From positions 842,161 through 906,160 of the forward strand of contig NZ_FWYF01000002.1 of assembly GCF_900176375.1 (NCBI RefSeq): 64,000 nt of DNA. Direction: 5' to 3'. The position numbers and the translations under genes are program-made. How positions within the stretch are numbered: position 1 is the first letter of the stretch; the number at the start of each line of letters is the position of its first letter. The stretch is from Reichenbachiella faecimaris (lineage in GTDB: Bacteria; Bacteroidota; Bacteroidia; Cytophagales; Cyclobacteriaceae). Under the pieces are notes generated by a model. The model worked only from the letters and a program-made list of their open reading frames with translations. It was not told where the DNA came from and did no database searches. Below, piece by piece: positions 12,411-18,319 of this stretch.

Positions 12411-12443
12411 AACAGCTCAGGGTTTAAACCCTGAGCTGTTTTT
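12411..12443 (+). terminator. Intrinsic terminator of the aldehyde dehydrogenase gene
   Basis: A perfect 30-base palindrome (AACAGCTCAGGG...CCCTGAGCTGTT) is followed by further T residues. It can form up to a 13-bp stem. Confidence 0.9.
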
Positions 12444-12484: not shown

Positions 12485-13480
12485 ATGAAAGCATTAACCA
12501 CAGTCTTATCTCTATCCATTCTCTTTTCATGTCAGCCCATGTCTGAAAAGGGAAAACCAGAAGTTGTTCCAGAGTACACGTTACCTGCGACACATAAGCA
12601 CAACAAATGGAGTAGAACCATTGCTCCTGTCCTGTCTGTACCCAGTGGTGCTATAGTGGAAGCCTTTACTGAAGAGGCTACAGATGCACAGTTAAATGTT
12701 AATTCTACTGTGAATGATATGGCGAATGTTTCATTCGACCCGATTCACCCCCTCACAGGCCCCATCTATGTAGAAGAAGCGCAGCCTGGTGATGTCCTCG
12801 CTGTGACCATGCACAAGATAGATGTAGGTGACTGGGGGTGGTCTGCCATTTTTCCGGGGTTTGGTTTTCTGGCGGATACTTATATGGAACCTTATCTTAA
12901 GACGTTCAAGATTGACAGTACAGAAAAAGTGATTCATTTCTCTGATAAGATTAAAATACCGACACGTCCATTTGCTGGTGTGATGGGGGTGGCACCAGAT
13001 ACTGATTCGTTGCTTTCGACTATTCCTCCGAGGGCAAATGGAGGCAATATGGATGACCCAAATATCGTCGAGGGTACCACTGTTTATTTCCCTGTCTTTG
13101 TTGAGGGTGCTTTATTTTCAATCGGTGATGCGCATGCGGTACAAGGGCTGGGTGAAGTGTCCGGTACGGCTGTAGAATCTCCCATGCGATTTGTGTTTGA
13201 GTTGAAGTTGCTGAAAGGGCAAAAACCTTATCTCAATGAACCCCAGTACGAAACGGACGACTATTATGCCGTAACTGCCTTTGGCCCGTCCATTGATATT
13301 GCCACTAAGAAAGCAGTCCAATACATGATTGAGTATTTGGTCAGTGAACATGATTTGAGTAAGGAGGACGCTTACATCCTATGCTCTTTGGCAGGAGATC
13401 TTAAAATCGCTGAGGTAGTTGATGCCCCGAATATGCTCGTGACTATGCATATCTCGAAGGAGGTTTTGGGGGTGAAATGA
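12485..13480 (+). CDS. Acetamidase/formamidase-family lipoprotein
   Basis: This 331-residue protein has a lipoprotein signal (MKALTTVLSLSILFSCQPMS, lipobox FSC). The body matches the acetamidase/formamidase family (FmdA/AmdA): EEAQPGDVLAVTMHKI, DWGWSAIFPGFG, RPFAGVMGVAPD around 163-175, and the metal-site-like GDAHAVQGLGEVSGTAVE around 217-234. Family members hydrolyse short amides to ammonia and acid. Export to the envelope is unusual for the characterised cytoplasmic enzymes but common in Bacteroidota copies, as I recall. The natural substrate is unknown. It stands alone between the aldehyde dehydrogenase terminator and the GIY-YIG repeat locus. Confidence 0.87.
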   Translation: MKALTTVLSLSILFSCQPMSEKGKPEVVPEYTLPATHKHNKWSRTIAPVLSVPSGAIVEAFTEEATDAQLNVNSTVNDMANVSFDPIHPLTGPIYVEEAQPGDVLAVTMHKIDVGDWGWSAIFPGFGFLADTYMEPYLKTFKIDSTEKVIHFSDKIKIPTRPFAGVMGVAPDTDSLLSTIPPRANGGNMDDPNIVEGTTVYFPVFVEGALFSIGDAHAVQGLGEVSGTAVESPMRFVFELKLLKGQKPYLNEPQYETDDYYAVTAFGPSIDIATKKAVQYMIEYLVSEHDLSKEDAYILCSLAGDLKIAEVVDAPNMLVTMHISKEVLGVK

Positions 13481-13509
13481 TTTAATCCCCATCCTAGTTC
13501 GCAATCATT

Positions 13510-13643
13510 CGTCATCACCCGGTTTATCCGGGTGATCCCCTTCGGATTGCACAATGATTGAAAGGGTAGCTCCTACCATTTGCAGATTACCCATTACGGA
13601 TAGCTATCGGAAGTTCCTCCGTCAAACCCATCGGGTAATGACG
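13510..13643 (+). repeat. GIY-YIG-associated palindrome-ended repeat, copy 1
   Basis: 134 bases. The ends CGTCATCACCCG and CGGGTAATGACG are inverted repeats of each other (11 of 12 positions). The left end also forms its own hairpin CACCCGG-TTTAT-CCGGGTG. Internal motifs shared with the other copies are AATGATTGAAA, GATTACCC and CCGTCAAACCCATCGGGTAATGACG-like right ends. It lies 12 bases from the 3' end of the nuclease gene. Confidence 0.85.
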
Positions 13644-13655
13644 GTTAATATATTG

Positions 13656-13955
13656 TTACTTCATTTCACTAATCTCATCAAACAAATCTCTCATTTCAGG
13701 ATTCATTTCATGGATAAGGTTTTCCTTCCACTCTCTCTTATACTTTTTAATTCGCTTTTCTCTATGGATTGCAGACTCAATATCTGTAAAGAATTCATAG
13801 TACAACAAATCAGTACAATTATACTTTTTAGTGAACGAAGCACCGAGACCATTTTTGTGTTCGTAGATTCTATTGTGGAGATTGGAAGTTACACCTGTGT
13901 AAAGAACAGTTCTGTTTTTATTGGAAACGATGTAGATATATCCACCTTTGGCCAT
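13656..13955 (-). CDS. GIY-YIG single-domain endonuclease flanked by repeats
   Basis: I start at ATG 13955 (MAKGGYIYIV), giving 99 residues, the size of stand-alone UvrC-N-like GIY-YIG proteins. The motif appears as GYIYIV (5-10) and LYTGVT (18-23). The catalytic Arg29 is in NLHNRIYEHK and the metal-binding Glu66 is in HREKRIKKYKR. The end ENLIHEMNPEMRDLF matches the family's usual LI..NP close. The nuclease site looks intact. It is bracketed by copy 1 on its 3' side and copies 2 and 3 on its 5' side of a palindrome-ended repeat. I infer it may act on those repeats. No partner gene is in the unit. Confidence 0.9.
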   Translation of the reverse strand: MAKGGYIYIVSNKNRTVLYTGVTSNLHNRIYEHKNGLGASFTKKYNCTDLLYYEFFTDIESAIHREKRIKKYKREWKENLIHEMNPEMRDLFDEISEMK

Positions 13956-13977
13956 GAATAAAAGTAACAATAAACAA

Positions 13978-14090
13978 CGTCATATCCCGTGTTTATCCGG
14001 GCTATCTCAAGCACGGCAGAATGATCGAAAAGTGCAGCTGTCATCTTAACAGATCACCCGAATTCTCCTCTGTCGAAGCGGGTAATGACG
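13978..14090 (+). repeat. GIY-YIG-associated palindrome-ended repeat, copy 2
   Basis: 113 bases in the same orientation as copy 1. The ends are CGTCATATCCCG and CGGGTAATGACG (10 of 12 positions complementary). It shares GTTTATCCGGG, CAGAATGATCGAAAAG, AGATCACCCGAATTC and the right-end block with the other copies. It begins 22 bases upstream of the nuclease start codon, so it probably contains or adjoins its promoter. Confidence 0.85.
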
Positions 14091-14103
14091 TTTTTATTTG
14101 ATA

Positions 14104-14226
14104 GTCATAGCCCTTGTTTGTTGGGGCGATCTCCATTAGGCAGTAGAATGTTTGAAAAGGCAGGGCTCAACACTGACGGATTACCCGAATGTCTTTTCTC
14201 TTCGTCAAAGCCATCGGGTAATGACG
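14104..14226 (+). repeat. GIY-YIG-associated palindrome-ended repeat, copy 3
   Basis: 123 bases in the same orientation, 13 bases after copy 2. The ends are GTCATAGCCCT and CGGGTAATGAC (left end more decayed). It shares AGAATGTTTGAAAAGG, GGATTACCCGAATG and CGTCAAAGCCATCGGGTAATGACG-like blocks, the last nearly identical to copy 1. It ends 8 bases before the stop codon of the nfu gene. Confidence 0.8.
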
Positions 14227-14234
14227 TGCTTTGG

Positions 14235-14837
14235 TTAACCATTTATCGCCTCTACTTCCTGCACCTCAGGTACCATTCTTTTCAGAAGATTTTCGATGCC
14301 TGCTTTGAGTGTGAGGGTAGAGGAAGGACATCCACTACAAGCGCCTTGTAGTACCACTTTCACTTTTCCATCTTCAAAAGAATGGAAATCAATGGCGCCA
14401 CCATCTTGCTCTACTGCAGGGCGGATATATTCGTCCAAGATGCCTTTGATGTTTTCATCTAGATCAGAAACTGGTGCTTTCGGCGCAGCATTTTCTTGCT
14501 TAGGCTCTGCGTAAGGCTGAGAGAGATTCACGGCCAGTTTACCAGACTCCAAATAACCTTTGATGTGTTCTTTGATGCCGTCGCGTACTTCTTCCCATTC
14601 TGTAGCTTCATCTTTCGATACGGTGATGAAGTTGCTCATCACGAATACACCTTTCACAAATGGGAAAGTGAATAACTCTTGCGCCAACTCAGAATTGGTT
14701 GCTCGTTCTGGAGATGGATAATCGAAATTGGTGCCTTCAGGTACCAACATAAAGTTCGCTACAAACTTCAACGTGTTTGGATTCGGATTAGACTCGAAAT
14801 ATATATTTACTGGGGTGTTTGCTACTGCTTCAGACAT
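14235..14837 (-). CDS. Nfu-type Fe-S cluster scaffold/carrier (NifU C-terminal domain)
   Basis: 200 residues in two domains. An Nfu N-terminal domain spans about 10-95 (IYFESNPNPNTLKFVANFML, FPFVKGVFVMSNFITVSK). The NifU C-terminal domain spans about 126-196, with the cluster-binding CxxC at Cys167 and Cys170 (GACSGCPSS). It binds an Fe-S cluster and passes it to target enzymes. Candidate clients encoded nearby include glutamate synthase and L-serine dehydratase, and the cysteine desulfurase at 3490 could supply the sulfur. A Gln/Glu/Ala/Pro-rich linker (about 107-122) joins the domains. ATG start; monocistronic. Confidence 0.93.
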   Translation of the reverse strand: MSEAVANTPVNIYFESNPNPNTLKFVANFMLVPEGTNFDYPSPERATNSELAQELFTFPFVKGVFVMSNFITVSKDEATEWEEVRDGIKEHIKGYLESGKLAVNLSQPYAEPKQENAAPKAPVSDLDENIKGILDEYIRPAVEQDGGAIDFHSFEDGKVKVVLQGACSGCPSSTLTLKAGIENLLKRMVPEVQEVEAING

Positions 14838-18294: not shown

Positions 18295-18319
18295 AGATTT
18301 CTCCTATCGTCGAAATGAC
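18295..18319 (-). repeat. Half copy of the GTCATTTCG intergenic repeat
   Basis: On the minus strand it reads GTCATTTCGACG...GAGAAATCT and then stops, matching the left half of the element at 2779-2884 in reverse orientation. It lies in the gap between aroC and batD. Confidence 0.5.

Follow-up and report, generated by a model that had tools for sequence, protein, structure and literature searches.

A solo GIY-YIG nuclease gene bracketed by CGTC-tagged hairpin repeats in Reichenbachiella faecimaris: a candidate enzyme for CGTC-REPs

Known repeat systems and the Reichenbachiella locus

In RAYT/REP systems (REPtrons, with their REPINs), cognate palindromes, dispersed as inverted dimers, stand on either side of a gene whose product, the RAYT, is an HUH/tyrosine transposase. 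A GIY-YIG enzyme has also been linked to a repeat: according to a 2025 report, Ssn of Neisseria is said to be a small GIY-YIG nuclease specific for the single-stranded dRS3/NTS repeat, reportedly with many homologues that have matching targets, and its role is said to be the cleavage of single-stranded DNA, with an effect on transformation. The dRS3 elements are the CGTC-1 elements of the CGTC-tagged REPs (Di Nocera et al. 2013, PMC3733652), a class that occurs in five phyla. As far as the available part of that paper goes, these REPs apparently have no dedicated transposase, and no tyrosine transposase gene flanked by CGTC repeats is reported.

The locus described here lies in a 64,000-nucleotide stretch of the Reichenbachiella faecimaris genome (the whole of the DNA analysed, hereafter the window). 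It has the layout of a RAYT/REP locus, its gene standing between cognate palindromes that also occur dispersed as inverted dimers, but this gene encodes a GIY-YIG protein rather than an HUH/tyrosine transposase. Its features are:

13510-13643, plus strand: element 1, a two-hairpin (REPIN-like), CGTC-tagged element of 134 nt, 3' of the gene; short hairpin 13510-13536, long hairpin about 13585-13643
13656-13955, minus strand (ATG at 13955): solo GIY-YIG nuclease gene, 99 aa; open reading frame with a Pfam match
13978-14090, plus strand: element 2, a two-hairpin, CGTC-tagged element of 113 nt, 5' of the gene; hairpins 13978-14005 and 14053-14090
14103-14226, plus strand: element 3, a two-hairpin element of 124 nt in tandem with element 2; left tag AGTC, not CGTC; right hairpin 14180-14226
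13510-14226, no strand assigned: proposed whole unit, with CGTC at its left bound and GACG at its right bound

The original prediction, made from the letters of this DNA, described three elements of 113-134 bases in one orientation with inverted-repeat ends, one of them 3' of the gene and two in tandem on its 5' side. All of this is present. The three elements share an orientation, with the shorter hairpin on the left, the longer on the right and GTC tags outermost; since the gene is on the minus strand, element 1 falls on its 3' side and elements 2 and 3 on its 5' side. Each element is built of two inverted hairpins with outer GTC tags (for example CGTC-ATCACCCGG..CCGGGTGAT-CCC), and the tag is CGTC at both outer ends of elements 1 and 2, while element 3 has one CGTC and one AGTC. 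Of the relation that had been proposed between the nuclease and a palindrome, the link between gene and repeat has held; for the unit that would be recognised, however, the CGTC-tagged hairpin (GTCATTACCCG with its complement) is a better description than just the CGGGTAATGACG palindrome.

The protein has one domain, and its gene is free-standing between two other genes. It matches the Pfam GIY-YIG family with E = 6.4e-17, and in an alignment of 73 sequences, its own included, Y8, Y19, G21 and E66 are invariant and R29 is nearly so, in agreement with the earlier reading of an intact nuclease motif set. An AlphaFold2 model (mean pLDDT 95) places Glu66 within helix 59-71, and residues 72-73 form a turn that leads to helix 74-84; with this motif set and fold, the protein is a GIY-YIG nuclease. 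Among solved structures, the only sequence matches at E<=0.01 are 1zg2 and 1ywl, small GIY-YIG proteins of the UPF0213/COG2827 group, which are like the window protein in domain and size; the names returned for these structures mention neither a repeat nor a DNA target, in contrast to the pairing seen here. PADLOC and NCBIfam gave no match, PHROGs gave two weak matches, both of unknown function, and none of 174 pattern matches in viral contigs was confirmed as a relative. Clustering of neighbouring genes in the flanks of 256 loci found no conserved partner gene; the largest clusters were repeat-derived open reading frames (10 genomes), another GIY-YIG gene (7) and unrelated genes (at most 6). 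Seven relatives (L031, L055, L056, L063, L078, L081 and L239) have internal stops, so broken copies of the gene are not rare.

The genome from which the window comes (G000) has four GIY-YIG matches, three of them solo genes and one within a 605-residue frame that is taken to be UvrC. A distinct repeat stands on both sides of each solo gene: GTCATTACCCG in the window (A-type), GTCACTGCGAG at C3:410820 and GTCATTTCGA at C4:501750. In this genome the A-type hairpin pattern was found 10 times and its reversed control not at all (once over all 59 genomes); the C-type pattern has 30 matches, its reversed control having 0 in this genome and 10 over the 59. In 26 of 35 A-type matches (those of G000, G004, G005 and G007, with 4 from G046 and G048 left out) both of the stem positions left open by the pattern form Watson-Crick pairs; six different combinations occur, which argues that the hairpin has been kept by compensatory change; both positions are standard pairs in 30/35. 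At 18296-18319, on the minus strand, the window also has a single C-type repeat (GTCATTTCGACGATAGGAGAAATC), the type found on both sides of the C4:501750 gene. A palindrome near 12415-12436 was considered as a repeat of the CGTC class and rejected, being a terminator.

The window elements have the features of CGTC-REPs: a tag (CGTC, TGTC or CCTC) outside the stem at one end, an 8-9 bp stem with A and T at positions 1 and 2 (here stems of 8 and 9 bp starting AT), and many copies, mostly inverted dimers, as the 10 A-type and 30 C-type matches attest. In PMC3733652 the class has the same CGTC/TGTC tag outside an 8-9 bp stem starting AT and the same inverted dimers, and several of its families share a genome, as they do here. 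Some loops at this locus are far above the 4-5 nt of CGTC-REPs, and the unpaired tails are CCC, CTG and CCG where CGTC-REPs have mostly CCA (PMC3733652). The window repeat also has a solo GIY-YIG gene as its partner, whereas that paper found no dedicated transposase.

Pairing of gene and repeat across genomes

Relatives of the nuclease were found by protein search in 27/59 genomes (its own included) at E<=1e-8 and, for the phylum, in 134/296 genomes at 1e-12. From named genomes, 80 loci were kept out of at least 540 that were confirmed, and the titles include Fulvivirga, Roseivirga, Pedobacter, Balneola, Sulfurimonas and Thalassotalea as well as records labelled Daviesbacteria and Omnitrophota. 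With no motif assumed, CGTCATT was the top enriched 7-mer within 250 bp of the gene over 80 loci (36/158 flanks against 25/623). When hairpins with a stem of at least 7 were scanned for each of 256 tags, GTCA was the best, at 3.36 per kb within 300 bp against 0.13 per kb beyond 700 bp, a 25-fold local enrichment; a GTCA-tagged hairpin lay near the gene in 98/156 loci. A strict scan for perfect stems had failed to pick up repeat types B and C, so the later tests relied on GTCA 13-mers with no hairpin condition, and a matched pair was defined as two such 13-mers agreeing at no fewer than 11/13 positions across the gene.

By this definition, matched repeats stand on both sides of the gene, within 400 bp, in 150 of the 191 eligible loci (those of 196 with usable flanks, the window's own included), and in 6/177 farther out (700-1100 bp). 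In a held-out set, fetched after the rules described below had been written and drawn in some cases from genomes that had also given training loci, a matched pair was present in 44/60 loci against 0/58 far-flank controls. Homologues of this subgroup thus usually do have repeats nearby, which the original prediction had made a check on its proposal; the pair is missing in 41/191 loci and in 16/60 held-out loci. None was found beside 21 control genes (12 Y1 transposases, 8 NifU-like and 1 UvrC-like) or around the 51 other window open reading frames of at least 100 aa. When the left flank of one nuclease gene was set against the right flank of another, the mark was reached in 603/2721 comparisons, because common repeat families recur. 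At the level of sequence, these results strongly support a link between nuclease and repeat that is general and more than chance, and they make the solo GIY-YIG subfamily a candidate enzyme for CGTC-tagged repeats. Coincidence, with repeats and small genes both gathering in permissive intergenic DNA, would accommodate the homologues that lack matched repeats (41/191) and the genomes that have repeats but no gene; set against the 25-fold local enrichment, the clean controls and turn-to-repeat rules that hold on held-out loci, it is scarcely credible.

GIY-YIG enzymes include homing endonucleases, and the presence of the gene between cognate repeat copies in 150/191 loci would suit a homing type of spread, in which the nuclease cuts its cognate repeat elsewhere and repair copies the gene unit in, with the repeats as homology arms. 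This seems unlikely, since matching hairpins persist on both sides of the gene, so that an occupied site would still be cut, and since the single hairpins in the window are short (27 to about 60 nt) and the 99-aa protein, by Pfam and the AlphaFold2 model, has no domain beyond the catalytic one. The window gene has neither the intron or intein location nor the separate DNA-binding domain of a homing endonuclease gene, and no Rfam family, introns included, matched 13300-14400 at E<=1.

Another reading would have the repeats moved by a tyrosine (Y1/RAYT-like) transposase, with the GIY-YIG gene as a passenger. Y1_Tnp matches do occur in all 8 genus genomes searched, two of them in the genome of the window (G000:C7:1290675 and G000:C3:384051). 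Unlike a RAYT/REP locus, however, the window repeat has no HUH/Y1 tyrosine transposase beside it; none of 12 Y1_Tnp loci, taken of 19 matches, has matched GTCA repeats on both sides, and the one G000 locus examined (L327) has no matched GTCA repeats. The passenger reading also leaves unexplained why repeat type follows GIY-YIG residues 71-76 (see below), and PMC3733652, as noted above, reports no tyrosine transposase gene flanked by CGTC repeats; we consider it very improbable.

The original prediction held that the link would be chance if the repeat occurred in many genomes that lack the gene. Within the genus, A-type repeats are found in 3/3 genomes with an A-type gene (at least 67% identity) and are rare in those without one (1/5), but the exception, G005, has nine orphan A-type matches and no A-type gene that was found. 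C-type matches are common in genomes with a K[WY]RRxKK gene (G000 30, G005 31, G004 11, G012 15, G052 15, G003 1) and in G007 (6), whose copy of that gene contains a stop; they also occur in G008 (19), G035 (5) and G028 (4), where no K[WY]RRxKK gene was found at E<=1e-8. The orphan repeats of G005, G008, G035 and G028 indicate that repeats can persist or arrive without the gene. Dense clusters of C-type repeats are seen in G052:C4 and at G033:C21:48636-49054, the latter with four identical hairpins at a 132-bp period.

Repeat type and the turn after the catalytic helix

Similarity between proteins goes with similarity between repeats across genomes (Mantel r 0.353 over 148 loci; maximum of 1000 permutations 0.088). 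When repeats were shuffled within genomes (53 genes, 20 genomes), the observed fit of 0.646 lay above both the mean (0.565) and the maximum (0.618) of 1000 shuffles. In an exploratory analysis, the strongest covariation was that of residues 71-76 with the repeat bases after GTCA; in the window protein this predicted specificity turn is KYKREW, comprising the end of the E66 helix and the residues just beyond it. An RREKK-like turn accompanies a TTTCGA repeat in four separate protein clusters.

Turn-to-repeat rules were set down before the held-out loci were fetched. A turn of the form x-G-[SNL]-R (GSR-type) was to go with GCGAG, which it did in 9/11 held-out cases against 0/33; an NWH turn went with C[TC]GA in 8/8 against 10/36, and [YW][RSV]R.KK (WRREKK-type) with TTTCGA in 3/4 against 0/40. 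The rule for KW[KN]R.W (KWKR-type) held in 2/3 against 3/41, and rules e and f of the advance set had zero held-out cases. When the repeat of a held-out locus was predicted from the nearest training protein, with same-genome pairs left out, residues 67-78 scored 0.689, the other 87 residues 0.652, all residues 0.681 and random choice 0.586; the best 12-residue stretch tried was 64-75 (0.694). Over the pooled 192 loci, among them the 148 from which the turn had been identified, the partial r was 0.393 for the turn given the rest and 0.126 for the rest given the turn, and pairs alike in the turn only scored 0.660, against 0.456 for pairs alike in the rest only and 0.424 for pairs unlike in both. 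A striking held-out case is L291, from another family of the phylum, which has the turn KKYPRKWK and the repeat GTCATCACCCGGT, identical to the start of window element 1 past its first C. As judged from sequence comparison, repeat type goes with residues 71-76, a short turn that immediately follows the catalytic helix; on held-out loci that turn is not a significantly better guide than the rest of the protein (paired test: 18 better, 21 worse, p 0.43).

Differences between relatives and the proposed element

In G005, the closest relative compared, whose NifU-like protein is 99% identical, the unit is missing, and the neighbouring genes are 217 bp apart against 754 bp in the window. This relative has a complete A-type two-hairpin element (L106, G005:C1 about 508310-508451) after an aldehyde dehydrogenase gene, and the corresponding window site is empty. 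At the C6:374369 element site, 24 bp lie between conserved flanks in G005 against 571 bp in G000, extra DNA that exceeds the element alone; the same site measures 134 bp in G002, a genome with 0 A-type pattern matches. The L007 element site is rearranged in G005, with 2.1 kb of other DNA there, and was therefore not scored as simply empty. One element is common to G000 and G005 (L006 about 1501-1608 and L113); its hairpin stems differ (ATTACCCG and ATCGCCTT), as if two repeat families were mixed. No target-site duplication was found at the compared places, where divergence of the flanks precludes alignment across the joint, and excision was not observed.

When gene copies at different places were compared, homology stopped within 8 bp of a tag at 23/57 ends (29 further ends less than 20 bp from the gene were left out), against a mean of 0.11 and a maximum of 0.23 in 300 draws of random loci; with each locus used once per side the count was 12/29. 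Homology stops at tags, for example, between L239 and L215, L169 and L182, and L238 and L269. Genome comparison shows that close relatives differ in the presence of the unit with its gene and of individual elements.

The unit is probably a REPtron-like element reduced to a minimum: a gene for a single-domain GIY-YIG nuclease stands between inverted copies of the CGTC-tagged hairpin cognate to it, and the dispersed two-hairpin elements would be short, non-autonomous copies of the unit. Very probably the nuclease recognises its repeat. It would bind the hairpin, probably as single-stranded DNA, reading it through the 71-76 turn, and would cut at or near the GTC|A tag. The nuclease might also drive the spread of the repeat: such a role for the cut is plausible, given that tags often bound the units and that relatives differ in which units they have. 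Through this cut, copies of the unit and of the short elements might reach new places. To our knowledge GIY-YIG enzymes act by hydrolysis of DNA, and no strand-joining step is known for them, so joining might fall to host repair.

A role like that reported for Ssn must be weighed here, in which the nuclease reads single-stranded repeats to control DNA uptake or recombination (natural transformation); on that view the repeats would mark the genome rather than move in it. Like the window protein, Ssn is reported to be a small solo GIY-YIG protein with a cognate repeat nearby and dispersed; the reported target of Ssn, dRS3, belongs to the CGTC class as its CGTC-1 elements, and the KWKREW turn of L188 is paired with CGTCATTCCCGCGCAGGCGGGAATCCA in a record labelled Gammaproteobacteria. 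Control of transformation alone does not predict that units and elements differ between close relatives or that homology often ends at tags, and as the whole explanation it is possible but somewhat doubtful. The two roles are compatible and do not exclude each other. If Ssn is as reported, this kind of repeat recognition by a nuclease is not new, and the present analysis adds the bracketed unit ending at tags, the presence-absence differences, the link to CGTC-REPs and the turn-to-repeat rule.

The original prediction knew of no published description of such a pairing. This now stands only in part, given the related pairing reported for Ssn and a repeat class that was already described as CGTC-REPs (PMC3733652). 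No paper on GIY-YIG nucleases paired with REPs was found in open-licence PubMed Central, among the matches listed, and the main text of a 2025 REP survey (PMC12306157) contains neither 'GIY' nor 'nuclease'.

More broadly, and tentatively, such units could form a widespread class of autonomous elements of about 0.4-0.7 kb, with a GIY-YIG nuclease as their only gene and CGTC hairpins as their ends, that supplies the missing enzyme of the CGTC-REP superfamily; the post-helix turn would then be a partly readable code from protein to DNA specificity, reused in different branches of the family. With repeat families paired to particular GIY-YIG genes, CGTC-REPs now have a candidate enzyme, and the question becomes testable. 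If confirmed, the turn-to-repeat rule would provide very small nucleases with targets predictable from sequence, and it would account for how several repeat families stay distinct within one genome.
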